From contig MHAF01000098.1 of NCBI GenBank assembly GCA_001802865.1, forward strand, positions 1 to 64,000: 64,000 bases of DNA, given 5' to 3'. The translations under genes and the position numbers were made by a program. The notes under the pieces are model-generated. The model had not been told where the DNA came from, did no database searches, and saw only the letters and a list, made by a program, of their open reading frames with translations. This document shows, one piece after another, positions 1 through 39,213 of this stretch. The first letter of the stretch is position 1; every line of letters starts with the position of its first letter. This DNA comes from Ignavibacteria bacterium RBG_16_34_14 (GTDB lineage: Bacteria > Bacteroidota > Ignavibacteria > Ignavibacteriales > Ignavibacteriaceae).

Positions 1-1798
1 CGTCGGCAGATAAAGTTGGTATTCCATAATTTCTCCAGAACTCATCAGGATTTTTAAGATGTTTCATAAGTGCTTCGGCTTTCTCCTTATCTGCAACACC
101 GGCCCACAATGCTAGAAAGGCAATTATTTCTTTCCTTTTCAGATCATTCGGTTTATTAAAAGTAAAGGAATGATTCTTCATATCTATATGATAATAAAAC
201 CCGGTTTCAGGATCCCACATATATTTATTTATTAAATCTGTCCTCTCCTTTGCATCATTCAGCCATTTATCGGCTTCATCATTTAATCCTAATTCTTTTG
301 TAATTGATGCAAGTGCCTTAGCTTCGCTTACCAGCATAAGATTACAGTCTACCGCATCAAAATTTTTCGGATCGCCCACTTCATCCCATACAGCAACTCT
401 TCCATCCCTTACACATTCAAGTACAGCATTAGCACCCCATTCGCAGAGTCCGTCGTTGTCCTTATCACGATTACTTACGAAATAATCATAAAACTTTTTA
501 CCCGATTCATAAGCCTCTTCAAGAAATTTTTTATCTTTTGTTACTTTATAAATTTCCCAATTCTGCCAGTTAAACCATGGAGCAGATGATGTATATTCTC
601 CACTCTCCGGAATTGTTTCATTAAGGTAAGGACCTGTTCTATAATTAATATATCCATCCTTCCACTGACGCTCCATAAAAACACGTTGAGAATTCATTGC
701 GCCGACCGGATCCATAAAAGAATAGACAAGCATCGTGAGACTTTCATGAAAAACCTGCCCGCCATAACCCCAGCCCCATCTAGGTTCGCGTGAAAAGACG
801 TAGTAATTGAAGTTGCACTCGCCTTCTGGAGGAAGCATACATTGCCTGATTAAAGAAAATGCATTCCAGTAAAGTGCTTCGTGGTTTTTATTTTCAAATT
901 TTATTTTTGGGATTCTGCTATAAATTTTCTCATTTTCTTTTATGTATTTATCCAGATCTACTGCAAGCAGATCATGGCATTGTTTAATCAAAACATTTTC
1001 ATCTTTTTCGGTTTCTATTACACCTCTTATAATTCTAAGATTAGTTGTTTCTCCTGCTGGAATTTTAAAAGTTTTTTGAAGGGAAATAACATTTGCTTCT
1101 CTGGATAATTCTTTCTTTAAATGTTTTGATTTTACATCACTCAAAAAAATATAACCACTTGTATCCTTTTCGTCATCAAATAATTGATAACTTCCCCAGC
1201 TATCTGCTTTTTCATTAAGAATAAATACGTCCTTCAAATCTTCTTTGAACGGAATATTATGCTCTTTCATCCAGCCATCCGGAAATTCTTTATGCTGAAG
1301 AATGAACCCGTCATTCCCGCTGGTAATATTTATATTAGAAAATTCCTTTTGATCATTTTGAAGGAAAGGATAAATATCTAAGCTGATATCAATAGAATTT
1401 TCATTTTTGACCTTCACATTTTGGATTGCAATCCGGGAACTGAATACTAAAAAGAAATTTTCTACCTTAATGTTTTTGAATGGATAATAATAAAATCTCA
1501 CCAAATCACTATAGGATGCAGTAATGACCGGAAGCTGATAGTATTGAGATAATTTTGAAATAATCTTTCCATCCGACTTAAAAATCATTCCCCAGTTACC
1601 TGCTTGTTTTACTTCAAAGTTTACTCCTTTATCCGGATCGAACCAAACCATTTGGTAGGCTTCGTTAACAATATATTCCGACCTGTCTATTGCAGCCGCA
1701 TAAGTAGTATATATCGGATCGTCCTGCCTCATACTCAGATTAGATAAATATTGTGCATTTGATGTACACACAAATATGACGAATAAAAAAATTAGCAT
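1..1798 (-). CDS. GH63-like (alpha/alpha)6-barrel glycosidase, secreted; C-terminus runs off the window
   Basis: Manual reverse-strand translation from CAT at 1796-1798: MLIFLFVIFVCTSNAQYLSNLSMRQDDPIYTTYAAAIDRSEYIVNEAYQMVWFDP...; contains ALYWNAFSLIRQCMLPPEGEC and GWGYGGQVFHESLTM; colinear with 10642..13761. Missing from the ORF track because there is no stop inside the window. Confidence 0.85.
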   Translation of the reverse strand, partial: MLIFLFVIFVCTSNAQYLSNLSMRQDDPIYTTYAAAIDRSEYIVNEAYQMVWFDPDKGVNFEVKQAGNWGMIFKSDGKIISKLSQYYQLPVITASYSDLVRFYYYPFKNIKVENFFLVFSSRIAIQNVKVKNENSIDISLDIYPFLQNDQKEFSNINITSGNDGFILQHKEFPDGWMKEHNIPFKEDLKDVFILNEKADSWGSYQLFDDEKDTSGYIFLSDVKSKHLKKELSREANVISLQKTFKIPAGETTNLRIIRGVIETEKDENVLIKQCHDLLAVDLDKYIKENEKIYSRIPKIKFENKNHEALYWNAFSLIRQCMLPPEGECNFNYYVFSREPRWGWGYGGQVFHESLTMLVYSFMDPVGAMNSQRVFMERQWKDGYINYRTGPYLNETIPESGEYTSSAPWFNWQNWEIYKVTKDKKFLEEAYESGKKFYDYFVSNRDKDNDGLCEWGANAVLECVRDGRVAVWDEVGDPKNFDAVDCNLMLVSEAKALASITKELGLNDEADKWLNDAKERTDLINKYMWDPETGFYYHIDMKNHSFTFNKPNDLKRKEIIAFLALWAGVADKEKAEALMKHLKNPDEFWRNYGIPTLSAD

Positions 1799-10641: not shown

Positions 10642-13600
10642 TCATTTTAAAAGAATCATTTTTTTTGTTTGTCTAAAATCACCTGATTGAATCGTACAAA
10701 AGTACATTCCGCTTACAAGGTTTTCAGCATTAAATACTATTGTGGTTTCACCTGCAGGTTTTTCTTCATTAAGCAAAACCTTAACTTCTCTTCCAAGAAC
10801 ATCAAATACTTTTAAAGTTACATTCTCGAGTTGTTCTAATGAAAATTTTATAGTTGTAGAAAGGTTGAATGGATTCGGATAATTCTGATATAATTCAAAC
10901 TGTACAAGTGTTTGATTATCTCTTGTAATAACACCAGATACATTATCCAAATCAATTAACATTCTTGCAACAATCCCCGTCCAGATATAAGTGTGAAGCC
11001 AGGAGTCGGATGGTCTTCTAGCATCACAATAATATGATTCATAAAAATCGTGGTAATCTTTTAGGACCTGAATCACACCATCGAACAGTCTCTCTGCTAA
11101 AGTTTTTGCTTCATTGATGTATTCATAATAAAGCAGACCTTTAAAGTTGAAGTAATCCCATTCCGGATAAACCGAATGAGCGTCATACCCGTCATAGGGA
11201 TCATTGTGAGCTAACAGGGGTATTCCATACGGTCTTCCAAATGTAAATTCATTCATTATTTCTTGCCTTAAATAGTTCGCCTCCTCCGGATTTGCTAAAC
11301 CTGACCATAATGGAAGTAGTCCTATTTGCTCTTTTCTTTTAAGATCATTCGTGGTCAGATATGTAAATGAGTGATCTCCTTTCATTACATGATAATAGAA
11401 TTTTGTCTGATCATCCCACATAAATGAATTTATTAAATTAGCCCGATCCTGAGCCCATTGTTGCCACAGTATTGATTCATCTTCTTTTCCCAGGATTGCA
11501 GCAATCTTTGATAAAGATTTTGCTTCCACTACCAGTTCGCAATTTAGGTCAAGTGCTTCAACTTTATTTGCGCTATGAGGATCCGACCAACCGCCCAGTA
11601 AATCCCAGATCACGTTATAATCCCGCACAGATTCCCAGAATGCATGCCCGCCCCACTCACATAATCCGTCTGCATCGTCATCACGTTCATTTATCCAGAA
11701 GTTGTAAAACTCTACTCCTTTGTAGTACATCTCGCTAAGGAATGATGTATCCTTACTGATTTTAAAAATTTCAAGATTCTCAAAACTAAACCAGGGTGCA
11801 CTTGAAGAATACTCTCCGGCAAGAAAATTAACCTCATTAAGATAAGGACCGGTTCGATATGGTATATATCCCTGAGGCCATTCCGGTCGTGTATTCATTC
11901 TTTCAGAAAAAACTCGCTGAGAATTCTGCGCACTCTCGGGATCCATAAAAGCGTAAGCAAGCATAGAGAGATTCTCATGAAAAACTTGTCCGGCATGTCC
12001 CCAACCCCAGGTGGGTTCTCTTGAATACACATTATAATTATAAGAACATTCTCCTTCGGGAGGAAGCATACACTGCCTTATCAAAGAGAACGCACCCCAG
12101 TACATCATCTCCTCATCAGGATCTGCCAACGTTAATTCTGGTATCTTACTGTATAACTCTTCATCATCATATACAAATTGTTCAAGATCAACTGCTTTCA
12201 GATTTCTGCAAGCTGAGACTAAACTATCAACACTGCTTTCTGCTTCCCCTACTCCTCTGATTATTCTTAAGTTAGAAAATGAATTCGCAGAAATGTTTAA
12301 GTTCTTTTGCATTGCCGCAACTTTTATTTCTCCGGCTGGGATGATATTATAAAGTGTGTTATTTACTGCATCAGAAAAAAATAATCTTGAATCATTCACG
12401 CTTCCTACTTCAATTGAATGCCCGCTAATTTCTCCGGCATTATTTTCAGCAATTACCACATATCCGTATAAGCTATCCGGATTAACTGTCCAATCCCAAT
12501 ATCCACCGCTATTTATTTGATCAGCCAAAAGATCATATCGTCCGGGAGTAGATGAAGTCCGGCGATAAACTGAATAAAGAATACCGGGGACATAGGTCCA
12601 GGAAATTACCGCAACAGTATTATTCTGTGAAAAAGTGGCATCAACATTTTCCGGAATTTGTGGTGAGAAATACGGTTCTAAAAAAATATCCAGATATACA
12701 CCTTCGGGTGAAGGTAGCGAAGGAATTATTCCATATCCGTTACCCTGTTCTATCGTAGCTGTACAGGTGAACACTACCCGAAATGAATCACCTTCTGATA
12801 TCGGAGGATTTTTAAAATTACCAAGTTCACAACTCTGAAAACCATTACCCGGTATGTTCGGATCAGAATCCCCCCACTTCGGAGCTTCCTCTGTAAGGAT
12901 TTCAGAATTTGAACCATTGTGATAAATCACCTGCTGCGCTTCAGGTGGTGTATGCATACAAAGTGAATCATCGGATTGAAATACTTTTCCCCACTCGACA
13001 CAATAATTATCACTATCAAAATCCCTAAATCCCGGAGGTGGAATGACGCCCAAATCCGAATATGCCCCGAAAGAATTTGCAGGCGAATCAATAAGGTATG
13101 CATCATTCAGATCTTCCTGATAAGGAACCTGGTGCCCTAATGTCCAACCATCCGGTCTTTCTTTATGCTGAAAAGTAAATCCATCCCCTTCATCCAAAAA
13201 AGAGATGTTGCTGATTGTATCGTTCGAATGATAGAAAAGGGGATAAACACTGAGTTCAACATTCTCATTCCCTTCGTTAGAAATTTTTATATCTTCAATA
13301 GCAATCCGGCTGCTATAGACCAGAAAAAATATTTCTACCCGTATTCCTTCGTAAGGATAAAAATAATATTTAACAAGATCGCAGTATGATGTGGTAATTA
13401 CTGGTTCAGAATAAAATTGATCCAGTTGATAACGAATTTCATTATTTAATTTGAATGCAAAACATAGATTACCGCCGGTATCGGTTTTAAAATTAATCCC
13501 ATCAGAAGGATCATACCAGATAAACCTGTAACCTTCATCTACAATAAATTCAGAACGATCCATTGCTGCGGCGTATGTTGTGAATAGCGGAGAATCTTTT

Positions 13601-13761
13601 GTAGCGTGAAGATTAGAAAGAAAGTTTTGCGCGTTTGTTGATGAAAATAATGATGCCGCAGTTAGCATTAATAATAAAACCTTACATTCCATCATTATCT
13701 TAACAATAAATCTTTGGGTGAGCTTTCTCTCCAAATAATATTTAATATAAACCGGGATCAT
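10642..13761 (-). CDS. GH63-like secreted glycosidase with inserted module + Fn3-like domain and T9SS sorting domain
   Basis: 1039 aa; shares LIRQCMLPPEGEC with 1..1798; tail NYPNPFNLSTTIKF...SGMYFCTIQSGDFRQTKKMILLK. True start probably at the internal MMECKVLL. Confidence 0.85.
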   Translation of the reverse strand: MIPVYIKYYLERKLTQRFIVKIMMECKVLLLMLTAASLFSSTNAQNFLSNLHATKDSPLFTTYAAAMDRSEFIVDEGYRFIWYDPSDGINFKTDTGGNLCFAFKLNNEIRYQLDQFYSEPVITTSYCDLVKYYFYPYEGIRVEIFFLVYSSRIAIEDIKISNEGNENVELSVYPLFYHSNDTISNISFLDEGDGFTFQHKERPDGWTLGHQVPYQEDLNDAYLIDSPANSFGAYSDLGVIPPPGFRDFDSDNYCVEWGKVFQSDDSLCMHTPPEAQQVIYHNGSNSEILTEEAPKWGDSDPNIPGNGFQSCELGNFKNPPISEGDSFRVVFTCTATIEQGNGYGIIPSLPSPEGVYLDIFLEPYFSPQIPENVDATFSQNNTVAVISWTYVPGILYSVYRRTSSTPGRYDLLADQINSGGYWDWTVNPDSLYGYVVIAENNAGEISGHSIEVGSVNDSRLFFSDAVNNTLYNIIPAGEIKVAAMQKNLNISANSFSNLRIIRGVGEAESSVDSLVSACRNLKAVDLEQFVYDDEELYSKIPELTLADPDEEMMYWGAFSLIRQCMLPPEGECSYNYNVYSREPTWGWGHAGQVFHENLSMLAYAFMDPESAQNSQRVFSERMNTRPEWPQGYIPYRTGPYLNEVNFLAGEYSSSAPWFSFENLEIFKISKDTSFLSEMYYKGVEFYNFWINERDDDADGLCEWGGHAFWESVRDYNVIWDLLGGWSDPHSANKVEALDLNCELVVEAKSLSKIAAILGKEDESILWQQWAQDRANLINSFMWDDQTKFYYHVMKGDHSFTYLTTNDLKRKEQIGLLPLWSGLANPEEANYLRQEIMNEFTFGRPYGIPLLAHNDPYDGYDAHSVYPEWDYFNFKGLLYYEYINEAKTLAERLFDGVIQVLKDYHDFYESYYCDARRPSDSWLHTYIWTGIVARMLIDLDNVSGVITRDNQTLVQFELYQNYPNPFNLSTTIKFSLEQLENVTLKVFDVLGREVKVLLNEEKPAGETTIVFNAENLVSGMYFCTIQSGDFRQTKKMILLK

Positions 13762-15944: not shown

Positions 15945-18695
15945 TTATCTTAAAAGCATCATCTTCCTGGTTATAATTTTATCACTGCTTTCCAGTCTGT
16001 AAAAATATACTCCCGATGACACATCTATATTTTGATTATCCTTTCCATCCCAATAAACTGAATATTTACCAATAGTTTCATACTCATCAACGAGGGTCTT
16101 TATTTCACGTCCTAATAGATCGTAAACCTTAATTTTTACATTCGATACTTCGGGAATTTGGTAAGCGATTTTAGTCAGTGGGTTGAACGGATTAGGAAAA
16201 TTCTGCAACAAATTAAAATCTTTAACAACGAATATCTCTTCATCCTCAACTGCTGTGGTGCTGCCTAAATAAAAATAAGCAAAACTGTATTGGTCGAAAG
16301 TTGTTGCATACTCCGAGGGCTGATTATTTACTTTTGAATAATATACGTTCAAACCGATCTGATCTGCAGTGTTAAGATTTAATCCTGCAAACTCTGTTTT
16401 CGGAATTGCTATTTCAACCTGAATAACCGGAAAAACAAGATTAACTTTTAGATTAACACTTAAAGGATTTATTACTCTGCGGTTAAAATGAGATTGATAC
16501 GCGGGATCATCATCCCACATACCTCCACCGCCACTGTACACCCTGACTTCTTCACTTGCATCCCAGGATCTAAAGTAAGTGAAAGTACCGTTGGAAATAT
16601 TTATTTCCATCATCGTATTACCGTTTCCCCACCACCAACCGTCAGACTGAAAGTCAAATGAGATTTGAGGAAGGCCAACGTTAGATAAATACATTCCGAG
16701 ATAAAGCGAATCCGAAGTATAACTCAAGTATAACTTAGGAGAATATTCGTAATTTGTGTACACGACTGTATCGTTGAAAACGACCCAATTATTATCTATC
16801 ACTCCATCCATTAATGGTGCAAAATTCGGTACCACGTTTTTCATTGGATACCGCGGATAATCGTCTTCTCCATCTATTAAACCATCCCCATCTGAATCGA
16901 TATTATTAGGATTGCTTCCACTGAATGTTCCATTAAAAGCTTCTTCTCTGTCCGAAAGTCCATCATCATCTGTATCCGCCTTATCAGTTCTACTATTAAA
17001 TATTTCTTCATTGAGAACTAAAAGCGATTCATTATCGGGCAATTCATCATTATCGGCATCGACTGCTTCATAAATATTTCCCCAATTTTCCAGGAGTTGT
17101 TCATAAGTATCAAAAGTTTTGAACATCTTTGCCTGAAAATCATAATGCTCTCCACAGGCGACCGGGAATTCCCAAGGAATATCGCCATGATACATTTGAG
17201 GTTGTCCATTCACTCTGTAAAGATCGTCAATAGCATGCTGCACTTCGTGGACGAAAAGCCAAATTAATCCATATTTTATATCTGGAGAAAATCCAGGATA
17301 TTTAACATCTGTTCCCACGGGCCATTGAACATGAGAGAATCCCGTTTGCCTTATAGGTCCGGGTAAAGGAAGATATTGAACACCGTAAGACCAGTACCCA
17401 TTTACTCCTCTTGTTATTCTAAAAATGATATCGTGTTGCGTATTCATTACACCTCTTTCAGCCAAATGATTGGCAGTAAGCATCATACTGCCCCAGAAAT
17501 CTTCAGGATTAAATGCCACATAATCGTCAATGATGTAATAAAAATATTCCACATTTAGCTTGAAATAAGAATTACGCCAGTAGAAAAGTTTTCCAAGTTC
17601 CAATGCATTCTTCATCTGAAAAATTTCGGTATCACTTATTGTGCCCCCATTCGTATTCTTATAAATAACAACTGCAATTTTTAAATTTGCATAAGAATAG
17701 AAACCTGATGTTGAAGTTAAAGTCATCACTGATTCTTCAGCCGAAGAAGCAATCTCAGTTTCGGAATCATATCTTGCTTTAATTTTATAGATATAAGTTT
17801 CACCAGTGTTAAGCCTTGAATCAATAAAAGTTGTGTCCAGCTCGTTATAAAACGGATTCCCGAAAGTCATTCCCTCTTGCCTGCGATAAATATTATAACC
17901 CACAATGGTCTGCTGCGGATTATTGTATGAATTCCACTTAATAATAGTATTTGTAGCATAGGGGGTAATTGTTACTCCTGTAATTGTCCCCATCAATTCA
18001 TTTACTTCTTCTGAATGAGAACTTTTAATTCCCTGCTGGTTAATTGCATAAATGATATATCCGTATTTTTGATCGGGTGAGCCGGTTATATCAGTAAAAG
18101 TATTTCCGAAAATATTAACAGCTATTCGTTCATAAAGGTTTCTTGGTCTGCCATCAGGTATAGAATCCTGGAAGGATTTACGGTAAATGTCATAGACTAT
18201 TCCAGGCTCAGCATTCCAGTTTAATATTCTATCATTGTTTGTTCTGTTAAGTGTTAAATTCTGCGGTGGTAATGGAAGATTTACAGGTATAAGAGTATTA
18301 GTTAATGGGAATCTTACCCAGGGTAATGCATCTACAGAATCCACGATAGTTCCCTGTTCACCAGTTGCATTACAGGTAAAGCTTGCATAAACTTTATCCC
18401 CGACTTGTAATTGGGGATTTATAAAAAGAGCCAGCTCTACTCCAAAGGTACCATTACCAGTAATATTAGGATCGGATAATAGATCAAATCTCGGTGCATT
18501 TTCAATTAAAATTTTGTCTTCATTATTGTTAAGGAAAACAGTAAAAGCAGTTTGTGGCGGAATGTGCGGGCAATAAGTATTATTTGAATGGTAAACAAAA
18601 TTTTTAAAGTAGATTGAATCACTTCCTGATGCCGCAGTAGAAATAACAGATAAACTTACAAGAAGACTCATTATAAATAACAGATTTAATTTCAT
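15945..18695 (-). CDS. Secreted putative zinc metallopeptidase with Fn3-like, Ca-binding repeats, CBM9-like domain, T9SS tail
   Basis: 916 aa; LIWLFVHEVQHAIDD (HExxH); DTDDDGLSDREEAFNG..DSDGDGLIDGEDD; NFPNPFNPLTKIAYQIPE...SGVYFYRLESSDKIITRKMMLLR. Confidence 0.75.
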   Translation of the reverse strand: MKLNLLFIMSLLVSLSVISTAASGSDSIYFKNFVYHSNNTYCPHIPPQTAFTVFLNNNEDKILIENAPRFDLLSDPNITGNGTFGVELALFINPQLQVGDKVYASFTCNATGEQGTIVDSVDALPWVRFPLTNTLIPVNLPLPPQNLTLNRTNNDRILNWNAEPGIVYDIYRKSFQDSIPDGRPRNLYERIAVNIFGNTFTDITGSPDQKYGYIIYAINQQGIKSSHSEEVNELMGTITGVTITPYATNTIIKWNSYNNPQQTIVGYNIYRRQEGMTFGNPFYNELDTTFIDSRLNTGETYIYKIKARYDSETEIASSAEESVMTLTSTSGFYSYANLKIAVVIYKNTNGGTISDTEIFQMKNALELGKLFYWRNSYFKLNVEYFYYIIDDYVAFNPEDFWGSMMLTANHLAERGVMNTQHDIIFRITRGVNGYWSYGVQYLPLPGPIRQTGFSHVQWPVGTDVKYPGFSPDIKYGLIWLFVHEVQHAIDDLYRVNGQPQMYHGDIPWEFPVACGEHYDFQAKMFKTFDTYEQLLENWGNIYEAVDADNDELPDNESLLVLNEEIFNSRTDKADTDDDGLSDREEAFNGTFSGSNPNNIDSDGDGLIDGEDDYPRYPMKNVVPNFAPLMDGVIDNNWVVFNDTVVYTNYEYSPKLYLSYTSDSLYLGMYLSNVGLPQISFDFQSDGWWWGNGNTMMEINISNGTFTYFRSWDASEEVRVYSGGGGMWDDDPAYQSHFNRRVINPLSVNLKVNLVFPVIQVEIAIPKTEFAGLNLNTADQIGLNVYYSKVNNQPSEYATTFDQYSFAYFYLGSTTAVEDEEIFVVKDFNLLQNFPNPFNPLTKIAYQIPEVSNVKIKVYDLLGREIKTLVDEYETIGKYSVYWDGKDNQNIDVSSGVYFYRLESSDKIITRKMMLLR

Positions 18696-18733: not shown

Positions 18734-21154
18734 TTATCTTAAAAGAATCATCTTCTTTGTTAATATGTTTGAATTACTTTCCAGCCGATAAAAATATACT
18801 CCTGAAGGTACATTCATGCTATGACTATCCTTCCCATCCCAGTAAACAGAATATTTTCCTGCATTATTGAATTCATTAACCAGGATTTTTATTTCACGTC
18901 CTAGTAAATCGTAAACTTTAATTTTAACATTCGATGCTTCGGGAATTTGGTAAACTATCTTTGTAACCGGATTGAAAGGATTCGGATAATTCTGCTCAAG
19001 CACAAATTTGTCAGGTGTTTTATTTTTTTCTTCAATGTCCGAAGGATTAATTAAACGCACGGTTACTTCTTCGTTACCTAATAAAGTATTTCCCCTCCAG
19101 TATTCAAAATTAAATGATGAAACTTCCAAAAATGTATAACCTATTAATCCATCCTTCTCAACCCGGATTATTGCAATTACATTCGATCTCCCATAATCAT
19201 GCTCTATCGTACCGTCAACATCGAACGGACATCTGCCTACAGCAACCTGTCCGAGTGAATCAGTTTGCAATTCTATAATATCAGGAATATCATCATAATA
19301 TTTACCATACCATTCACCAGCCTGACCTTCCGACTGATAAATTTCAATTGATGCATTAGTCAGAAGTTCTCCTGATTCATTTTTAACAGTAAGAAAGTTT
19401 TCCTGAGGGAGGTCCTGCAAAAATACTCCAATGTTGTTAGGAGCATTATAATTTCCATAAGTAGCCCGGTGTCCTGCAATCAGATTCATTGCAACCGCAG
19501 AATAATGATCTACGTATGTATACTGACCATTCATCAGTCCGTGAATTGGAGTATGATATACACCTCCACCCACCATGGGCATATAAGGTGTACCAACTAT
19601 CAATTGACCATTCTCCATTATAGCAACAGTGTTACCTGAGCCATCATCATTCACATCGAATCCATAAACATCGATGAGATAACGAGCATGCCCGAGTTCA
19701 TGCATTAAAGAACCTTCAAAGTAAAATGGATTACTCATACTTGGAGAACTATGGTTAGAATAAAATCCACCGCTAAGAAGATCTTCCGGAAACCCCCATT
19801 GTAAGTCAATTGTTCTGTCATTCAGGTTTGGAGTATTGGTGGCTAAACCTCCAGCAAGGGGCAAAGCACCATCGGGAACAACGTGAATGTCATCAATTCT
19901 GATCCGGTCTAATACTCCGCTAGGAGTTTCCGGGAAAATGGCGTCGGCAAACATTTGATTCCAGATTTTTACATGCCTCTGCGCCCAATCTTCCCAGCAA
20001 TTGGAATGAACATTTAGATATTGTTGGTACTGATGGAAATAGTCAAAAACACTTTGTTCTACATAAAATCCGGCACTAATGGCGTTAGTGTAAATTAACA
20101 GCTCGTTATTCAACTCTTCTTCTTCCTGAATTATATCATTTGGATCGAGAATAAACTTTAATTCATGTCTGTCAAACGTCCAGATCCAGGGATAATTCAC
20201 AGTTGTATCACTCTGTGCAAACATTGGTACTGTTCCCGAATCAACCTCCACTCCGTCAAACAGCCATTTATAGGGTACAGCGGAATAATCTTCTTCAGCC
20301 CAATTTCTTATTTTTGCCTGCCATATAACGGTATCACCGATTGCAGGCCATCCTTCAACAGCAGGATTTGGACTTCCCCATATGTAATCTATCCGCGGAA
20401 GCCTTGCAATAAAACCAATCGTCAAATCAGTTCCCGGTGCAGGGTCTTCATTTGCTTCCCCGGAGTGAGAGCTTTTTATTCCGTTTGAATTAACAGCGTA
20501 GACAATATAACCGTAATTTTTATTCAGTTCAGCTGTTGTATCAGTAAAACTTCCGGAAGAAAGATTCTCTGCGATCCTGTGGTAAAGCATTCTGCACTCT
20601 CCGTTGGGTAGAGTTTCCTGGTACGTGCGGCGATAAATAGTATAAGTTAATCCAGCAACAAAATCCCAGCTCACAGTACGATAGCCGTTTAAAGAATCAA
20701 TAACCAGATTTAAATTTTCAGGAGGCGAAGAAAAATCCACTACATTAAGATACAGGGAGAGAGGAAAACGAGCCCAAGGTACAGCAGTACAGTAATCGCT
20801 TAGCGTTCCCTGCTGCTCCGTTGCATTATCTGTAAATCTTATATAAGCACTATCTCCAACTTGTAGAGAAGGATTAATAAAATTACCAAGTTCAACGCCA
20901 AAGGTACCATTGCCGGAAATATTTGGATCCGCACCTATTTCCCATCTGGGAGCGTTTTCTATTAGAATTCTACTTTCATCATTATTCAGATATGCAGTGA
21001 AAGTGGCAGTAGGATTAGTGTGATAGCAGAATGATCCATTAGAATGATACACAAAATTTTTAAAATAGCTGGATGGATTATTCTGTGAAAAAGATACTGA
21101 ATTTGTTACCGTGCAGATTATAGTTACAACTAAGATAATTTTACCAATTTTCAT
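18734..21154 (-). CDS. Secreted putative zinc metallopeptidase with CARDB-like region and T9SS tail
   Basis: 806 aa; EGSLMHELGHARYLIDVYG (HExxH); N-terminus paralogous to 15945..18695; NYPNPFNPVTKIVYQIPE tail. Confidence 0.75.
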   Translation of the reverse strand: MKIGKIILVVTIICTVTNSVSFSQNNPSSYFKNFVYHSNGSFCYHTNPTATFTAYLNNDESRILIENAPRWEIGADPNISGNGTFGVELGNFINPSLQVGDSAYIRFTDNATEQQGTLSDYCTAVPWARFPLSLYLNVVDFSSPPENLNLVIDSLNGYRTVSWDFVAGLTYTIYRRTYQETLPNGECRMLYHRIAENLSSGSFTDTTAELNKNYGYIVYAVNSNGIKSSHSGEANEDPAPGTDLTIGFIARLPRIDYIWGSPNPAVEGWPAIGDTVIWQAKIRNWAEEDYSAVPYKWLFDGVEVDSGTVPMFAQSDTTVNYPWIWTFDRHELKFILDPNDIIQEEEELNNELLIYTNAISAGFYVEQSVFDYFHQYQQYLNVHSNCWEDWAQRHVKIWNQMFADAIFPETPSGVLDRIRIDDIHVVPDGALPLAGGLATNTPNLNDRTIDLQWGFPEDLLSGGFYSNHSSPSMSNPFYFEGSLMHELGHARYLIDVYGFDVNDDGSGNTVAIMENGQLIVGTPYMPMVGGGVYHTPIHGLMNGQYTYVDHYSAVAMNLIAGHRATYGNYNAPNNIGVFLQDLPQENFLTVKNESGELLTNASIEIYQSEGQAGEWYGKYYDDIPDIIELQTDSLGQVAVGRCPFDVDGTIEHDYGRSNVIAIIRVEKDGLIGYTFLEVSSFNFEYWRGNTLLGNEEVTVRLINPSDIEEKNKTPDKFVLEQNYPNPFNPVTKIVYQIPEASNVKIKVYDLLGREIKILVNEFNNAGKYSVYWDGKDSHSMNVPSGVYFYRLESNSNILTKKMILLR

Positions 21155-21208: not shown

Positions 21209-22171
21209 TTATTCAAACAAAACACCAACACCAACCCTATGCGAAGCACCGAGTATTCCTAATTTACTGTATGAATAATCAACCCTGGATCCAATGCCGC
21301 TTATACCCAGTTTGAATCCAACTCCAAAAGAATAAGTAGCAACATCATAATTTATTTTATACCCGCCTCTTGCAAAGAACATATTATCATAACCCCACTC
21401 AAGACCTACCTGCGTTAATGGTTGTCCGTCATTTGGTTTAATAGCCGCAAAACTAAATAGAACTTTCTGCACTTCACTTTCGATAACATTTATTCCAGCT
21501 CCGAATGTAAAATTAGTTGGAAGAGGATATGACTCGTTAACGAACTGAACATTAGATCCGAAGTTAGATATCTGCATAGCAAATTTAAATCCACGGAAAT
21601 CAGAGACGTACATGGTACTAATATCAACAGCCACAGCATCTGCAGAAAATCCCGGGAAGAGAGAAAGATTTATATATCCAACAGAAAGACCAACTGTAAC
21701 GCGATCGGTAAAGAAGCGGGAGTATGAGAGAGCAAACTTATAATTACCGGAATAAAAAGTTTCACCCGTGCCATCAGGTTGAAGAGGAGTTCTTACTTTC
21801 ATTTCATCGGTATAAAGACCTGTAACAGCTATACCGAAAGTTCCGATATCATCAAATGTATGCGCTGCTGCAGCAAAATCATGATTTATTCCAGCAAACC
21901 AGAAATTATGATTGAATACAATATCAGTTCCTTCAATCCACGCGAGTGATGCAGCGTTATAGTAAGTTCCTTCGGCTCCTTCAACAATTGCTATATAAGC
22001 ATCGCCCATTGCTGTACCCCGGGGGCTAACCCCGATTTTCAGAAATTGAGCATCTGTACTACCAGGACGAGAGTATTGCGCTATCAGTATCGGAGAAAGG
22101 AACATAAATAAAATTAGTATCAGTCTATTCATCATAAAGTACCTGCTTTTGTTTAGCTTTTTAAACTTCAA
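21209..22171 (-). CDS. PorV/PorQ-like outer membrane protein
   Basis: 320 aa; STDAQFLKIGVSPRGTAMGDAYIAIVEGAEGTYYNAASLAWIEGTDIVFNHNFWFAGINHDFAA, typical of the PorV/PorQ family. Probable start at internal MMNRLILILFM. Confidence 0.75.
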   Translation of the reverse strand: MKFKKLNKSRYFMMNRLILILFMFLSPILIAQYSRPGSTDAQFLKIGVSPRGTAMGDAYIAIVEGAEGTYYNAASLAWIEGTDIVFNHNFWFAGINHDFAAAAHTFDDIGTFGIAVTGLYTDEMKVRTPLQPDGTGETFYSGNYKFALSYSRFFTDRVTVGLSVGYINLSLFPGFSADAVAVDISTMYVSDFRGFKFAMQISNFGSNVQFVNESYPLPTNFTFGAGINVIESEVQKVLFSFAAIKPNDGQPLTQVGLEWGYDNMFFARGGYKINYDVATYSFGVGFKLGISGIGSRVDYSYSKLGILGASHRVGVGVLFE

Positions 22172-22188
22172 ATCTTTTTTATAAATAT

Positions 22189-23976
22189 TTATTTTATGAT
22201 TACAAACTTTCCAATCTGGGCTTGTCCGTTATTAGTATCCTCAATAGTAAAGAGATATATCCCGCTGGAAACTGTCTGACCGACATCTGAAGTTAAATTC
22301 CAGTCTTCGTAACCCTTGGATGGGTTATCATGAAGAATAGTTGCAACAAGATCACCGGCAAGAGTAAAGATTTTAATTTCACAGCTGATAGGGAGATTTA
22401 TGAATTGAATTCTTCTATCCTGTTCCATCCATCTATCACGGGTACCTGTAGGTTTTTCCCACTGCGGATCATAATCCTGGTAAGCAATGTCCCCGCGATA
22501 AGGATTTGGAACAACAGCTACTTCACCCACCGTTTGTGGCGGGGCAGTGCCTGGAATAACCTGTTTTGCATTTACATAAATACTAGATTCTTGTGATGGA
22601 AAATCTATTACTGTATCTTCTTTCGAATATGCTGTTACTGAATAATAATAGTCAAAGTTGTTCAGCAGTCCTTTATCAATATATTCGTGCTCAAGTCCTG
22701 TATTATATCCATAACCGTCATTGGGCAAATCGTACTCACCAAGCAGCGTCCACGGGCCAGCGGCACTTCTTGTGCTTTTATAAATTCTATATCCCTCAAA
22801 AGGTTGCTGTGAGCTATCTGCACGATAAGGATCAATATAGGTTTCAGGATTAATATCTCCGGGTTGAGCATCCCATTTTAGAATTACTTCATGATTTCTG
22901 GCTTTAATTCTTAGTGGAGGCAGAGGAGGTGGTGAAGGAACTTTAAAGTCTTGTCCCACCAGCCAATCCAAACGATCAACATTCTTTAATATCCCTTCTT
23001 CACCTTCACCAAATAATACAGCAACGAAGAAACTAAGTGTATCGCCGGCATACATATCAACGGGGCCGAAAGAAATTATAAATTGCGAACCGATAGGATC
23101 CTGTTGATTTTCCATAATTACACCTGAAGCCATTTGCTCATAACGTAATGCATCTTGTCCCGGAGGAGCTCCCAATCCCTGACCGGGATACCAGTTGAAC
23201 GTCCAGCGCAATGAATCAGAAGGAATATTTTCCGGTGGAAAGATTTGAACACCGATTGGGCTATATGCTGTACCATCAAAATGTCCCGGATCGTCAACTG
23301 AAACACCAAATTTTTTATCTGAGTAATAAACCGAATAGTCATCGAGAGCAAAATCCCATCCGCTTCCCCTGTAACCGACATTACCATCGAGCCAATATGC
23401 TACGTAAACATTGTCCAGATCATAGTTAGTTGAAATCACCTTAAAATTAAATATCAGCATTTCATCGAGCGGTTCAGAAGCCCAGCTATAGCTATTCTGA
23501 ATTACATCCAGATAAAGAGGATGATGATCGGGGATTGTCCTAATATTATAATCACTGTAGCGGCAAATTAAATCCTGATCAGAAACTCCTACATAACCTT
23601 GCCAATAAGGAATATCAACAGTATCATTTTTATTTACAATCCAGATTGTATCCCAGGGTTCATCCGTCGGGTAGAATTCAAAATTGGAATTCCAGCTTGT
23701 AGTAACAGACACTAATGTATCAGATCCGAAAATTGCACCAACCCATATACCGCCTTCACCAATGTGCTCTTCATGACTTTCTCTCGGGAATTCACTATAA
23801 ATCAAACCCGGATAATCTACATTTGCCTGCCAAAGTGTACCCATATTAGTAACTAACTGCCTAACTTCGCCAATATTATGGAGTTTCCAGTCAAGATTTG
23901 TTCTTTGTCCAAATGTGGATGAGAGACACAAAAATAAATAGATTAATACTAAATTTTTTAAAAGTTTATAAATCAT
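22189..23976 (-). CDS. Secreted Fn3-containing protein with variant C-terminal sorting-like domain (tandem paralog 1)
   Basis: 595 aa; LDWKLHNIGEVRQLVTNMGTLW; VVPNPYRGD...RDRWMEQDRRIQFINLP...SSGIYLFTIEDTNNGQAQIGKFVIIK. Confidence 0.7.
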   Translation of the reverse strand: MIYKLLKNLVLIYLFLCLSSTFGQRTNLDWKLHNIGEVRQLVTNMGTLWQANVDYPGLIYSEFPRESHEEHIGEGGIWVGAIFGSDTLVSVTTSWNSNFEFYPTDEPWDTIWIVNKNDTVDIPYWQGYVGVSDQDLICRYSDYNIRTIPDHHPLYLDVIQNSYSWASEPLDEMLIFNFKVISTNYDLDNVYVAYWLDGNVGYRGSGWDFALDDYSVYYSDKKFGVSVDDPGHFDGTAYSPIGVQIFPPENIPSDSLRWTFNWYPGQGLGAPPGQDALRYEQMASGVIMENQQDPIGSQFIISFGPVDMYAGDTLSFFVAVLFGEGEEGILKNVDRLDWLVGQDFKVPSPPPLPPLRIKARNHEVILKWDAQPGDINPETYIDPYRADSSQQPFEGYRIYKSTRSAAGPWTLLGEYDLPNDGYGYNTGLEHEYIDKGLLNNFDYYYSVTAYSKEDTVIDFPSQESSIYVNAKQVIPGTAPPQTVGEVAVVPNPYRGDIAYQDYDPQWEKPTGTRDRWMEQDRRIQFINLPISCEIKIFTLAGDLVATILHDNPSKGYEDWNLTSDVGQTVSSGIYLFTIEDTNNGQAQIGKFVIIK

Positions 23977-23982
23977 AAAATT

Positions 23983-25806
23983 TTATTTTATTATTACGAA
24001 TTTATCTATCTGAGTATTTCCATTTCGCTTATCCTGAACTGCATAAAGATAAAGTCCACTGGAGATTGCCTGACCAACATCAGAAGTCAGGTTCCAATCT
24101 TCATATCCTTTAGCAGGATCGTTATGATATAGCTTTGCAACAATGTCCCCGGCCAAAGTAAAAATTATAATTTCACATTCAGCAGGAAGATTTATGAATT
24201 GAATTCTCCTATCCTGCTCCATCCATCTTTCACGTGAGCCAGTTGGTTTTTCCCATTGGGGATTATAAGTATAATAAGCTTCATCTCCCCGGTAAGGATT
24301 TGGAACAACAGCTACTTTTCCAACAGTTTCAGGAGGAGTAGTTCCCGGAACTACCGTATGACTGTTAGCTGAAATACTTGATTCCAGAGGAGGAAAGTTT
24401 ATCACTTTGTCCGGTTTTGAAAATGCCGTTACTGAATAGTAATAATCAACATTGTTAAGTAATCCAACATCAGTATATTCGTACTCAATCCCTGTGTTTG
24501 AACCATAATCATCTTCCGGAATATCGAATTCTGCAAGCAGTGTCCAAGGACCCGCTTGACTTTGCGTACTCTTATATACTCTATATCCTTCAAATGGTTT
24601 AAACAAGCTGTCGGCACGATAAGGATCGGTATAATCTTCAGGATTTATTTCGCCCGGCTCAGGATACCAGTTGAGATTTACCTGTTTATTATCAGTAAAC
24701 ACCTTAAGAGGCGGAGATGGTGGAGCGGAAGGTATTTTATAATCTTTTGCCCGTACAACATTCAACACTCTTTCATTATCTTCAATGCCTTGTATTCCCT
24801 TTCCAAGAATAATCGCAACACTAAAATTAAGGGTATCATCTTTTTCTAAATGGTATGGACCTAAAGAAACAATATGTTTGGTTCCATCACCTGTGCTTAC
24901 CTGATTTTCCATCACAACCCGGCGAGTCATATCTCTCCATCGGTCGTCATTAGTATGTGGAATTCCCTGTTGCTGGCCGTTATACCAGATAAAAGTCAAT
25001 GAGCTGTCTCTTCCCGGCGGTATTGGTGGAAAGTAATTTCTCTGTCCAATAGGACCGATAGCAGTACCATCTTCACCACCGGGAAGGTCGGTACTAATTG
25101 CCATAGTTTTATCACGCTCAAAATAAGTTTCATCATCAAGACCGAAAGCATCGGTTTCTCCGTAACCGACATTCCCGTTCATCCAGTTTGTGATATAAAC
25201 ACTATCAAGATCATAATGCTTGGAGATAATGTAATAATTAACAACGATAATCTCATCAAGCGGCGGCGAACCCCATGAATAACTTACCTGCACAACTTCA
25301 AGGTATAATGGAATGTGATCTGCTTTCCGTAAACTAACCGGATTATAATCATTGTACCGGCAAATAAAATCCTCATCGGAAACTCCCACGTAATTTTGCC
25401 AATAAGGATTTACCGGATCACCTATATTTACAGTATCGCCTCGGTGAACAACCCACATTGTATCCCACGATTCATCGGAAGGCCAGAATTCTCCTTCCTC
25501 ACCACGAACAACAGATACCAATGGCTGTCCATTAACTTTTGCACCTATCCATGGGCCAGCTTCTGTAATATGCTCCTCCCGGCTTCCCGGCGGGTACTCG
25601 CAATTAATGAGTCCGGGAAAATCAAATGTCGCATCATTCTTTGCATTTAACCAGCCGGTGTTTGTAACGACCTGACGAACCTTTCCTATATCATGTAATT
25701 TCCAGTCGAGTGTAACTGTTTGAGCATTAATTACTGCATATTCAAATAACATCATAACTATTATTGAATATTTATACTTAAAGGAACTTCTCATATTACC
25801 AATCAA
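23983..25806 (-). CDS. Secreted Fn3-containing protein with variant C-terminal sorting-like domain (tandem paralog 2)
   Basis: 607 aa, colinear with 22189..23976 (LDWKLHDIGKVRQVVTNTGWL...ERWMEQDRRIQFINLPAECEIIIFTLAGDIV...KFVIIK). Confidence 0.7.
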   Translation of the reverse strand: MIGNMRSSFKYKYSIIVMMLFEYAVINAQTVTLDWKLHDIGKVRQVVTNTGWLNAKNDATFDFPGLINCEYPPGSREEHITEAGPWIGAKVNGQPLVSVVRGEEGEFWPSDESWDTMWVVHRGDTVNIGDPVNPYWQNYVGVSDEDFICRYNDYNPVSLRKADHIPLYLEVVQVSYSWGSPPLDEIIVVNYYIISKHYDLDSVYITNWMNGNVGYGETDAFGLDDETYFERDKTMAISTDLPGGEDGTAIGPIGQRNYFPPIPPGRDSSLTFIWYNGQQQGIPHTNDDRWRDMTRRVVMENQVSTGDGTKHIVSLGPYHLEKDDTLNFSVAIILGKGIQGIEDNERVLNVVRAKDYKIPSAPPSPPLKVFTDNKQVNLNWYPEPGEINPEDYTDPYRADSLFKPFEGYRVYKSTQSQAGPWTLLAEFDIPEDDYGSNTGIEYEYTDVGLLNNVDYYYSVTAFSKPDKVINFPPLESSISANSHTVVPGTTPPETVGKVAVVPNPYRGDEAYYTYNPQWEKPTGSRERWMEQDRRIQFINLPAECEIIIFTLAGDIVAKLYHNDPAKGYEDWNLTSDVGQAISSGLYLYAVQDKRNGNTQIDKFVIIK

Positions 25807-28666
25807 TTCTTAATCCTACTTTTACATAACGACCAGTAGAATAGAGGAAAGGATTCATTAACCGAAACATTGTGTACCAATCGTAATACTGATTAGTACC
25901 AGGTTGAATGTCTCCATATTTATATCCTTTACCTGTGTAATTATTAAAGCCAAGACCACCGCTTACAGTTTGAATATTGTTCTGATTGAATAGATTGAAG
26001 ATATCTAACTCCGCAGAGAGTCTTAAACCAAAAACTCTAAACCCTTTACTTATTTTCAGATCTGTATTTGATGAAGACGGACTTGTTTTTGTGTTTTCAA
26101 GTTTTTGTGCTTCCGCAGGATCAAAAGTGAATGGAGTATAAGGTAATCCTGAAGAATATCTTGCAAGTATGGTGATATTCCAATCATCAGGCAATTCAAG
26201 ACCAAATAAATTAAGATGTTCATTTTCTGGTGATGTTAGACCTCCCTGGAAAATAATCTGATGACGTACATCCCATGAAGCTCTTCGTTCACGAATCGGA
26301 TAGGGAAAATCATTCAATGAACGAATATAATCTTCAAATGCGGATGAAGAATAAACATCCGCCCATTGCACCGTATAAATTAATTCTGCAGAATAGAAAT
26401 CGGAATAACGTTTGGTTAACTGAAATTCAAGCCCTCTTGCTCTTCCATAGCTCTTGTTATCAAATAACTCAACAGGAATACCAAGCGCTGCTTTTAATTG
26501 TGTAGTTCCAACCTGATGAGAAATATCTTTAGTATAACTTTTTATATCAATAGCAAAATCATTAAAGATTTGATGCGTGAATCCAAATTCATAAAGGATC
26601 GTTCTTTCATAATCAAGATGGGGATTTCCGGTTGTTCCGCCGCTGTATGGATCCCTATAGAAAAATTGCATTTCAGGAATTTGAAAGAAATGACCATACG
26701 AGAAGAATACAACAGTTCGTTCAGTAATAGGGAAGGAAATACCAAAACGAGGACTAAATTTATATTTGAATTTTGTCCAGTTTGATTCCAGACCTGTTGC
26801 AGCTTCCCACTGCTCTTTCCATTCTTTGCCATTGACTGTTGAACCGAGATAAAACCAATCAAAACGAAAACCTCCATTTATTATCAGGAATTCTTTCTCA
26901 AATTTATTCTGAATGTATACACTACCAGTCATCGGATATGTATGGAATACCCAACGGTTTCTGCTGAATTCACTAAATGATCCGGGAGGTGCTATAGGTG
27001 GAGGTGTTGTTGTGTCTCTTTGGAAAGCCCATTCACCATAATCTGATAATTGTACACCACCATGCTGGATATCAACATAATTAATATCATTATATTGAAA
27101 TTCAAATCCTGTCTTTATTAAGTGTTCAGGATGAATCTGTGAAGTAATGTCTCCTTTTAATGTTAAAGTTTTAGTATTATCATCTCTCCATATACTGTTA
27201 TAACCCTGTGAATCGAAAAATCCTGTGAGCGGATCTATCTGTGGGGGTTTAATCTCACTTTTGAATGAATCAGGAACAAAGCTGTAGTTATTTGAAAATT
27301 TTTTCCATTGGCTGTACGAATATTCTTGTCCATCTTTATAAAATCTCCAGTAATCGGAAGAATTTTTACCAAATAATGAACCTTGAAGATTAACACCAAG
27401 ATAACCAATATTTATCGAGTAATAAGTTGAAGGGGACAAAACATGATTAAGAGTCACAGATATATTATTATTATCTCTGGAATATGAAGGAAGATTATTG
27501 GGGTTGTATAACCAAAGCCAGTCGAAATCGCTCCAATCTTTAAAAGATCCCATATAACTAAGAACAGTTCTAAATGAGGGGGTTATTTCCCAGGTAAGCT
27601 TACCGGTTATACTGGATATATTATCTTGTCTTTCCTTAATATTAAATCCAAAGAAACTTATATCGTCTCTTCTCCTATTATTATTGTACGCAGTGTTTGT
27701 TAAAGATCCATTCAGAGATAGAAAATAAAATAACTTTCCTGGAGCGTTTATTCCGAGTTGAGGTAAAAGATACCTTGTAAAAGGTTCGGGCCCACCCATA
27801 TAGAAAGTCAGGTAATCTGTGTTGTATGTAGTTGCAAATATTTTTAATTGATCTGTACGGTATTCAATACCGCCCGTAAAATTCTCGTTGCCGGAACGTG
27901 TAGTTATATTAACGACACCTGATTGTGCCTGTCCGTATTCTGCATTAAAAGCACCTGTAAGTAATTCAACTTCGTCAACTACGTTGACATCCAGATCGAG
28001 CACACTTCTTCCACCGTAAATGGGATGAGTAACAGGAATGCCATCAATAAGGAATAATATTTCACCGCCTCTTCCACCGCGGATGTGAACATCCTTAACA
28101 CTCTGATCCCTAATCTGTAGTTGTATACCTTCTGTCAGCCGCAAGTTTTGCGGATCTACGCCGAGAATAGTTCCCCCCTGAAGTTTAAATATATCACTTG
28201 TGTTTTCGAATCCGGGTAATTCGTCCATTGATTCACGTGAGATAGTTTTGCGTGTAGAAGTGATATCTTTCTGAACCATCTTCTGTTCTGCAACAACTGT
28301 AATTGTCGGCGTTTCAATAACCGTTGATTCCAACTGGATATTCACTATAGTAGTCAAATCTGATTTTACTTTTATACCTGTTATTGTTAAAGAGTGATAA
28401 CCTATTGCAGAGGCCTTGAGTTCATAAGTTCCGGAAGGAATATTAATAATGTAATATCTGCCTTCTTCATCGGCGGCACCACCCATTGTTGTTCCTACAA
28501 GGATAATGTTTACTCCGAGTAAGTTTTCTCCGGTTTGCTTATCAGTTACGCGCCCGGATATCTTACCTGTTTCACCTGCAATTAAATGTGTTGTGCAGAA
28601 AACAACTACAACAAACATTAAATAAATGTTCTGTAGTATCTTCAATACTAATATCTCTTTTTGCAT
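25796..28666 (-). CDS. TonB-dependent receptor with carboxypeptidase-regulatory-like N-terminal domain
   Basis: 956 aa; GKISGRVTDKQTGENLLGVNIILVGTTMGGAADEEGRYYIINIPSGTYELKAS; plug LRLTEGIQLQIRDQSVKDVHIRGGRGGEILFLIDGIPV; C-terminal beta-barrel strands. Confidence 0.9.
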   Translation of the reverse strand: MQKEILVLKILQNIYLMFVVVVFCTTHLIAGETGKISGRVTDKQTGENLLGVNIILVGTTMGGAADEEGRYYIINIPSGTYELKASAIGYHSLTITGIKVKSDLTTIVNIQLESTVIETPTITVVAEQKMVQKDITSTRKTISRESMDELPGFENTSDIFKLQGGTILGVDPQNLRLTEGIQLQIRDQSVKDVHIRGGRGGEILFLIDGIPVTHPIYGGRSVLDLDVNVVDEVELLTGAFNAEYGQAQSGVVNITTRSGNENFTGGIEYRTDQLKIFATTYNTDYLTFYMGGPEPFTRYLLPQLGINAPGKLFYFLSLNGSLTNTAYNNNRRRDDISFFGFNIKERQDNISSITGKLTWEITPSFRTVLSYMGSFKDWSDFDWLWLYNPNNLPSYSRDNNNISVTLNHVLSPSTYYSINIGYLGVNLQGSLFGKNSSDYWRFYKDGQEYSYSQWKKFSNNYSFVPDSFKSEIKPPQIDPLTGFFDSQGYNSIWRDDNTKTLTLKGDITSQIHPEHLIKTGFEFQYNDINYVDIQHGGVQLSDYGEWAFQRDTTTPPPIAPPGSFSEFSRNRWVFHTYPMTGSVYIQNKFEKEFLIINGGFRFDWFYLGSTVNGKEWKEQWEAATGLESNWTKFKYKFSPRFGISFPITERTVVFFSYGHFFQIPEMQFFYRDPYSGGTTGNPHLDYERTILYEFGFTHQIFNDFAIDIKSYTKDISHQVGTTQLKAALGIPVELFDNKSYGRARGLEFQLTKRYSDFYSAELIYTVQWADVYSSSAFEDYIRSLNDFPYPIRERRASWDVRHQIIFQGGLTSPENEHLNLFGLELPDDWNITILARYSSGLPYTPFTFDPAEAQKLENTKTSPSSSNTDLKISKGFRVFGLRLSAELDIFNLFNQNNIQTVSGGLGFNNYTGKGYKYGDIQPGTNQYYDWYTMFRLMNPFLYSTGRYVKVGLRIDW

Positions 28667-28674
28667 AACAAGTC

Positions 28675-30162
28675 CTAATGAAGATTCAAACTTTGAATAA
28701 TTTCATTAATCATTACTATTGCATCATCTTTATTAATAAAAAACATAGGGAATCCGAGAATAACCGCATCGAAGCTGCTGCCGTAATAACGCAGCCCGCA
28801 TGCCTGCCCCCTATAATTAACATAACTGCTGTTATCAGCATTACCATAGGAATAAATTTTATCTGTAAATCCCGCAGGTTCGATAATGAGATTAATCTGT
28901 CCTAATCCCCATGAATCAGGGAATACAAAAGGGAAGTCTAATATCTTTGTGGAATCCACTCTTATATCCGAGTAATAGCTGCCGATACCATAGAAGCCAA
29001 TACAATCTCCCGGGGCAAGAACAGTTTCATCAACATTGATTATATGCAGATAATCGTGTACAAAAGAGCCGTCCGGAAATGCAACTGGAAAAGGATCATT
29101 CCATGCAAACGATTTAAGAATTCGCCAGCCGCTCATAAAAAACTTACCCCCAACATTAAGGTAATCTTCAATTACTTCTATGTTCTGCGGCAATTTATGA
29201 GGTTCGAATGAAGGAAGGTCATCCGCATGCCAAACAATTAATTGGTATTTTCCAAGAGTATCCCTTGGAGGTATTCCTCTTGTTTTAAAATCCCATGAAT
29301 CTTTTATTCCAAAAATAGCGGCATAAAAACTGTCAACAGCAGCATCAGTTGGTTGTACAACTCCATAAGGAAAATTGTTTTCGTCTGTTTCGTCAATAAT
29401 CAAAATACGATCTGTAAAGGTCGGCTGGACCAATTTTACTAAAACTGAATCACCAACAGGATCAACAAGATTTGTATTATCGCGGGATGTTGCTCTTAAG
29501 ATGTGAGTTCCACTTAATGGTGAAGAAAACTCAGATGGAGGAATGTAAATTAAGGTATCATTAGTCCAATGCCAGTCACCATTATCAACAGCCCAGGCAT
29601 ATTGAACAATAGCACCTCCCTCATCGAGATCTCTTGCAGTGTAAATAAGCTTTATTCCCTGCCACCAATCAGTTACTTGATCAAGTGTATAATACTCTTT
29701 ATTTGTTTCGGGTGAAACTATCTCAGTGATTGGGAATATTGTTTTATATGTATAGATAATTTTTTCTGCCGGAGTAGGATCCACATCCCCACTATTGTCT
29801 ACTGCTCTAACCTGAAAGACCTGTTTATTCAGGTTGTCATCTGAAAGAAATGCAATTGTAAGACTGGTTTCCTTTGTATCTTTCCATTCCTGTACCAAAG
29901 AATCGTTCATTGTTAGATGGTAGGTAACATACCTGTATTGATAGCCAGCAACATAACCATCATTATCTTCACCATCCCAGTGAAATGTCTGAAGCGCAAA
30001 TAAAGTATCGTTATCACGTGGAATGTTTGCAATTGTAGTATTTGGTGTTTCATTGGGATTGGGCGGTTCAGTCGGTCTTTCACAATAATTAAATAAAATC
30101 GCTGAGATAAGTAGTAAAAAAAATTTCCTCAAGAAATGCTGTATATTAAAATCTATTTTCAT
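28675..30162 (-). CDS. Secreted lipoprotein, uncharacterised
   Basis: 495 aa; signal with lipobox-like ILFNYC ERPTEPPNPNETPNTTI; Fn3/Ig-like repeats. Confidence 0.6.
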   Translation of the reverse strand: MKIDFNIQHFLRKFFLLLISAILFNYCERPTEPPNPNETPNTTIANIPRDNDTLFALQTFHWDGEDNDGYVAGYQYRYVTYHLTMNDSLVQEWKDTKETSLTIAFLSDDNLNKQVFQVRAVDNSGDVDPTPAEKIIYTYKTIFPITEIVSPETNKEYYTLDQVTDWWQGIKLIYTARDLDEGGAIVQYAWAVDNGDWHWTNDTLIYIPPSEFSSPLSGTHILRATSRDNTNLVDPVGDSVLVKLVQPTFTDRILIIDETDENNFPYGVVQPTDAAVDSFYAAIFGIKDSWDFKTRGIPPRDTLGKYQLIVWHADDLPSFEPHKLPQNIEVIEDYLNVGGKFFMSGWRILKSFAWNDPFPVAFPDGSFVHDYLHIINVDETVLAPGDCIGFYGIGSYYSDIRVDSTKILDFPFVFPDSWGLGQINLIIEPAGFTDKIYSYGNADNSSYVNYRGQACGLRYYGSSFDAVILGFPMFFINKDDAIVMINEIIQSLNLH

Positions 30163-30173
30163 TCTCAGTCTTC

Positions 30174-35999: not shown

Positions 36000-36022
36000 T
36001 ACAGTTTTATAAAAGGATTATA

Positions 36023-36226
36023 TCACTCAACTATTACATTCTTATTTTTAATTATATAGATCAATCCCACTACAACCATTAAACCTCCCCACCAAATGTT
36101 GGGATATAATTCGCCTAAAACTGCATTCGTTTCAGCTGGGGAAATAAGCAGGTACAAACCAGTTAATAATAAAATGCTGCCAATAGTAAAAAGAATTAAT
36201 CCTACGAAATACCAGATTGGTTTCAT
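36023..36226 (-). CDS. Small membrane protein, two predicted hydrophobic segments
   Basis: 67 aa ORF between GH2 and symporter genes; hydrophobic stretches VGLILFTIGSILLLTGLYLLI and WWGGLMVVVGLIYII. Confidence 0.5.
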   Translation of the reverse strand: MKPIWYFVGLILFTIGSILLLTGLYLLISPAETNAVLGELYPNIWWGGLMVVVGLIYIIKNKNVIVE

Positions 36227-36238
36227 ATATTCTCCGTT

Positions 36239-37900: not shown

Positions 37901-37923
37901 TTATTTTTCCTAATAAGAAATTG

Positions 37924-39204: not shown

Positions 39205-39213
39205 ATTTTAAAA

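Follow-up and report, generated by a model that had tools for sequence, protein, structure and literature searches.

A candidate new domain family, paired with Fn3, in secreted glycosidases and peptidases of an Ignavibacteria sugar-utilisation locus

A shared domain pair in a GH63-like enzyme and two zincin-like proteins

We analysed a 64,000-nucleotide stretch (the window) of Ignavibacteria bacterium RBG_16_34_14, a MAG of 78.6% completeness, in which it forms the start of contig MHAF01000098.1. Four of its genes, all real ORFs on the minus strand, concern us most: two GH63-like enzymes, G (2..1798) and A (10642..13761), and two zincin-like proteins, B (15945..18695) and C (18734..21154). G, recognised from its ORF, by BLASTP against A and in a tree, is cut by the contig end. 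Enzyme A carries a T9SS sorting tail (10654-10881) and was placed in GH63 by a family profile matching Escherichia coli YgjK (E 3e-30) and by relatives that exceed the PF03200 gathering score of 22.4, A itself staying under it at 18.3 bits. The two enzymes share an N-terminal beta-sandwich followed by an (alpha/alpha) barrel, and Glu908 of A aligns with YgjK Glu727, the catalytic base, in a profile alignment that left the region of the GH63 general acid (Asp) unaligned. Unlike YgjK, to which the match is limited to the catalytic parts, A holds an additional module and an Fn3 domain within its N-domain.

BLASTP of G against A returned two colinear blocks, pairing G 1-204 with A 30-234 (45%) and G 217-597 with A 460-851 (50%), and exposed ~222 extra residues in A (aa 236-458; 12388..13056, minus strand) that replace a short loop of the N-terminal beta-sandwich domain. 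An earlier note on this DNA had described the two enzymes as colinear except for one segment of the second, placed at 12400-13050; the blocks bear out the description, and the position is correct to a few codons. The module, whose presence elsewhere in G would have told against the note's reading of a possibly new binding module, is absent from the 599 visible residues of G, which include the whole N-domain, the last ~100 or more residues lying beyond the contig end.

The extra segment recurs at the start of both zincin-like proteins, as the note had also stated. The insert of A matches the N-terminus of C with 38% identity over 204 aa (E 5e-30), and B matches C with 48% over the first 246 aa, spanning signal peptide, module and Fn3 (E 2e-70). 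What had been called a single ~200-aa module is indeed a shared segment, but one better described as a ~115-aa module followed by an Fn3 domain of ~90 aa. On the minus strand, the module copies occupy 12652..13005 (copy 1, in A, a GH63 of type I; profile E 1.9e-42, and 38% identical to copy 3 over module and Fn3), 18264..18617 (copy 2, N-terminus of B; E 5.6e-45) and 20720..21073 (copy 3, N-terminus of C; E 1.4e-48), and a search of this organism's own 78.6%-complete MAG found these three only. The Fn3-like domains lie at approximately 12394..12663 after copy 1 (aligned, with invariant W and YRR, and matching the PDB Fn3 chain 3mpc by profile), at 17991..18272 after copy 2, where a second Fn3 follows (alignment and profile), and at 20444..20731 after copy 3 (alignment, profile and structure match), in agreement with the Fn3-like domain that had been noted behind each module. 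By sequence and by fold, this second half of the pair is an ordinary Fn3: its profile resembles the Fn3 domains of Clostridium thermocellum (3mpc, 5g56), its structure resembles 3mpc (TM 0.76), and no notable difference from known Fn3 domains was seen.

Alignment and Pfam matches trace B from its module through two Fn3 domains, a zincin-like domain, TSP3-like repeats and a CBM9/DOMON-like domain (recognised by eye) to a T9SS tail, and C from its module through Fn3, CARDB and a zincin-like domain to a T9SS tail. The zincin-like motif HEVQH of B (17235-17249, minus strand) belongs to a set of residues invariant in nine homologues (H483, E484, H487, D490, E516, D519), and the HELGH of C (19688-19702, minus strand) to one invariant in six (H485, E486, H489, D495, Y497); these HExxH motifs uphold the label 'peptidase-like' given to both hosts. 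The catalytic regions of B and C matched nothing in Pfam, NCBIfam or the PDB and no described peptidase family, and the two zincin-like domains (HE[VF]QHxxD; HELGHxxxLID-Y) are candidate undescribed metallopeptidase families. A, B and C are T9SS cargo, with C-terminal sorting domains scoring above the cut-offs of both PF18962 (Pfam) and TIGR04183.

Upstream of the module genes, on the same strand (21209..30794), lie a PorV-like outer-membrane protein, the T9SS-tailed proteins P1 and P2 (all three named by eye from the sequence) and a TonB-dependent receptor, together with the genes Q1 and Q2. Many relatives have homologues of these companions next to their module genes, for the most part in an unchanged order. 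Pfam matches then place at 33465..45304 (minus strand) a GH2 enzyme, a Na/sugar symporter, a galactokinase, an aldose epimerase, a GH5-like enzyme, a GH53 endo-beta-1,4-galactanase and a galactose-1-P uridylyltransferase.

Other genes of the window deserve mention in their own right. The paralogous secreted proteins E (9606-10625) and D (13758-15797) share a YERGVAE..LH..xHRxE segment with a possible H-x3-H metal site; their common domain falls into no Pfam family, and its homologues recur in the loci L063-L065, L111 and L115. A further enzyme, GHx (1903-5289), joins a DUF4960 N-terminus to a catalytic region that matches MGH1-like, GH116/DUF608 and GDE_C models together, and its homologues recur beside module genes. 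Amid the sugar-utilisation genes, 5646-9461 encodes a 1271-aa RecD/AAA-type helicase-like ORF with no secretion signal discernible by eye.

Distribution, fold and conservation of the module

A pattern scan of a genome collection turned up nine relatives, from Ignavibacteria, Bacteroidota, Calditrichota, Neomarinimicrobiota, WOR-3 and KSB1. Profile searches through complete sets of genome sequences then returned matches in 7 of 396 genomes of the window's own phylum (one of them by chance), 13 of 40 of the Calditrichota-type group, 8 of 199 of the Neomarinimicrobiota-type group (again one by chance) and 2 of 147 of the WOR-3 group; matches in genomes G086 and G522 were discarded as chance, since they fell in unrelated proteins (a repeat protein and an acyl-CoA synthetase-like protein). 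With duplicates removed, the analysed set comprised 62 module copies from Ignavibacteria, Bacteroidota, Calditrichota/KSB1, Neomarinimicrobiota and WOR-3. Their hosts are GH63-like enzymes (28 copies), zincin B (16), zincin C or C2 (12) and C25-type peptidases (6), and an Fn3 domain follows the module in every one of the 62.

Most of the loci concerned are of the T9SS/TonB-dependent sugar-utilisation type, and some include genes of galactose catabolism; GalK/GalT/GalM/SSF, GH127, GH2 or GH172 (DUF2961) were found in some of the related ones. About a dozen of the regions examined hold a GH63 copy no more than 20 kb from a peptidase copy. Proteins of ~940 aa ending in an FGE-sulfatase (formylglycine-generating enzyme-like) domain adjoin module-bearing GH63 genes in L061 (3328-6144) and L067 (5827-8640).

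A second subfamily of module-bearing GH63 enzymes, type II (loci L053, L056, L061, L065, L067, L105 and L109), lacks a T9SS sorting tail and accompanies the surface-type GH63 in some genomes. These proteins are probably periplasmic.

Compared with Pfam, NCBIfam and PDB sequences, the module matched no family, and a literature search found no paper on either module or locus. It is most likely a new, undescribed domain family of ~115 aa. The best Pfam lead, Lectin_like (PF18560), was not significant and was rejected: 3 of 47 members scanned gave a match, with a best E of 0.0047, and the module of genome G097 reached only 16 bits against a curated cut-off of 27. Alignment by hhalign of the module profile with true PF18560 domains from the same genomes gave probabilities of 3-11%. 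The two are alike in being beta-rich accessory domains on peptidases (cysteine proteases in the case of PF18560) and in a similar-looking G-x-L...GD-F hairpin, yet the module stays below the cut-off and is not a member. Separate C1A-like cysteine proteases with a PF18560 domain and a T9SS tail occur in four Calditrichota/Neomarinimicrobiota genomes (L122-L125).

In functional kind, the module resembles the CBMs of CAZy, being a non-catalytic beta-sandwich carried by secreted glycosidases in a modular, Fn3-spaced arrangement. It differs from them in sitting on peptidases too, and in that none of the CBM-type Pfam models was matched when 47 members were scanned. The possibly new binding module of the earlier note is a plausible reading, and it came through the search for a matching Pfam family.

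AlphaFold2 modelled the module and Fn3 of C with a mean pLDDT of 90.8, providing the confident structure prediction that had been suggested as a check: a seven-strand beta-sandwich precedes the Fn3 domain. The module is hence a discrete non-catalytic domain with its own predicted fold, placed within enzymes or N-terminal to them. Foldseek with the pair returned mostly generic Fn3/Ig-type and cytokine-receptor folds, as two-domain matches, and no specific relative of the module; since the matches are generic, we assign the fold class alone. A full-length GH63 model had a mean pLDDT of 54, so that the position of the insert within the N-domain is backed by strand order alone.

Conservation centres on the motif ILTExAPRWxxxDPNIxGxGxxGxELGNF...GD. 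Of 29 module positions conserved in more than 70% of copies, 22 fall outside strands, among them E40, A42, P43, R/K44, W45, N52, G57, L63-F66, G74 and D75. A cysteine pair (17/83), present in 53 of the 62 copies, probably forms a disulfide. An EF-hand-like calcium loop in DPNIxGxG...E was considered by eye and rejected for its wrong spacing.

In two of three host families, the module matches the catalytic domain in conservation. Identities in GH63 type I are 64% for the module, 63% for the catalytic domain and 39% for Fn3, and in zincin B 52%, 53% and 36%, respectively. GH63 type II shows 48% for the module, 56% for Fn3 and 67% for the catalytic domain, the module here being least conserved. 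Because the module is constrained like the catalytic domain while the Fn3 drifts, it would have a function beyond spacing in most hosts.

Evolutionary history of the module

All module-bearing GH63 enzymes compared carry the module at an identical site, which in homologues lacking it is taken up by a short loop, and they form one side of the GH63 tree (support 96/88; built without L106, a broken gene that distorts the tree). The GH63 modules make up a deep group of their own in the module tree, joined by two deep WOR-3 zincin copies; the C25 modules form a separate group (100/94), and those of B, C and C2 are intermixed.

Modules of B and of C/C2 share 61.6% identity within the same genome versus 49.2% across genomes, an excess of 8.3 points after row- and column-centring that none of 2,000 permutations equalled. 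Their Fn3 domains showed a weaker same-genome effect (p 0.03). The same permutation test, over four comparisons in all, gave no concerted evolution between B and GH63 modules (p 0.88, 0.86). In composition, GC3 is 0.28 in the insert and 0.30 in its host gene A, with no sign of recent transfer.

Given the trees, the insertion site and the same-genome identity test, the GH63 insertion goes back to a single ancient event at one position and has since been passed down in several phyla, and exchange or homogenisation is supported only between the adjacent metallopeptidases B and C/C2. Of the proposal that the pair moves between unrelated enzymes within one locus, the old spread to four host kinds and the zincin-zincin exchange therefore stand, but movement between GH63 and peptidases does not. 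A recent hop of the module within this locus was likewise rejected, with the insertion site common to other phyla, the trees and GC3 all against it.

Possible roles of the module

The analysis establishes the module's family, the class of its fold, its conservation and domain architecture, its site of insertion, its genomic surroundings and its evolution; ligand binding, the nature of the ligand as a glycan or glycoprotein, and its identity are what we infer. The reading we put first, at slightly short of an even chance, is substrate targeting: the module would bind a common target, the Fn3 would serve as linker, and the catalytic domains would act on sugars or backbone. Under this scheme, Ignavibacteria and related phyla of the FCB group would use a beta-sandwich accessory domain with its own putative binding site, joined through an Fn3 spacer to enzymes that a sugar-utilisation locus encodes for secretion, to direct each of these enzymes to one shared substrate or surface. 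In GH63 enzymes the domain would descend from a single ancient insertion into the loop of the N-terminal beta-sandwich; as the N-terminal domain of the adjacent zincins, it would be homogenised between neighbouring genes.

In favour of targeting, all hosts found are secreted degradative enzymes, of four kinds, and concerted evolution of the zincin modules within a genome is what one would expect if they served one target. The sugar-utilisation genes around the hosts, the constraint on the module at the level of the catalytic part, its conserved positions outside strands and its cysteine pair speak for the same reading. Against it, the type II module is less conserved than its Fn3 and catalytic parts, and no known sugar-binding family is similar beyond the non-significant PF18560. 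Concerted evolution with the peptidase modules does not extend to the GH63 modules, which may therefore bind something different.

As to the target, the locus in the window may serve galactose or galactan utilisation, and members of GH172, which occurs in related loci, act on alpha-D-arabinofuranosides (PMC10115798). The neighbouring genes therefore make a galactose- and/or arabinose-bearing glycoconjugate a plausible target, and the presence of peptidases hints at a glycoprotein. The likeliest candidate, as deduced from the neighbours only, would be a glycoprotein or proteoglycan bearing galactose and/or arabinose, which at the cell surface would come under joint attack from glycosidases (GH63-like enzymes and their neighbours) and peptidases (the two zincin families and the C25 type). 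The full version of this account, in which one new family recognising a glycoprotein or proteoglycan is common to glycosidases and three unrelated peptidase families, sugars and backbone are stripped together, and gene conversion matches the modules of neighbouring peptidases, is possible but doubtful.

The main rival to targeting is docking, in which the module would attach exported enzymes to another product of the locus (the PorV-like protein, P1/P2 or the TonB-dependent receptor) or to the cell's own surface polysaccharide and so build a multi-enzyme complex at the surface. Module genes, those of the zincins above all, do adjoin the PorV-like/P1/P2/TonB-dependent receptor genes, and one species-specific partner would fit the concerted modules of neighbouring zincins. 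We nevertheless regard docking as rather unlikely: T9SS tails confer export and attachment, so these are already provided for; several module loci, on short contigs, have no PorV, P1 or TonB-dependent receptor gene nearby; and a secretion or anchoring role is made less likely by GH63 type II, probably periplasmic, which keeps the module without a T9SS tail.

A role within the enzyme itself seems unlikely. The module lies inside the GH63 N-domain and, in the peptidases, immediately behind the signal peptide, positions from which it could shape or cap an active-site entrance, or act as N-terminal chaperone or prodomain, and so regulate the enzyme. Prodomains rich in beta structure stand at the N-terminus of gingipain-type C25 peptidases, and conservation equal to that of the catalytic domain in GH63 type I and zincin B would suit such a function. 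A fold-specific intramolecular contact is nonetheless hard to reconcile with one cassette on four non-homologous catalytic domains, always with its Fn3 spacer.

An inert Ig-like spacer that adds only length would explain why Foldseek matched generic two-domain Fn3/Ig-type folds and little else, but is improbable in view of the strongly conserved loops and of constraint that equals the catalytic domain's in two host families while the adjoining Fn3 drifts much faster. That the insertion is an artefact of assembly, or arose by recent recombination in this MAG alone, is conceivable for a single contig of a draft genome but refuted by relatives with the identical insertion site in independent genomes of several phyla, by a homologue of 89% identity from a second Ignavibacteria MAG (L007) and by the matching GC3 of insert and host.

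Returning to substrate targeting, accessory domains common to glycosidases and peptidases point to a shared substrate, and the module marks a conserved sugar-utilisation system in the poorly cultured Ignavibacteria, Calditrichota, Neomarinimicrobiota and WOR-3, accompanied by two zincin families that have no Pfam entry. Its homogenisation between adjacent, unrelated peptidases provides one tested, useful case of concerted domain evolution. If glycoprotein binding is true, the module would offer a handle on the diet of these bacteria as well as a new binding-domain family.
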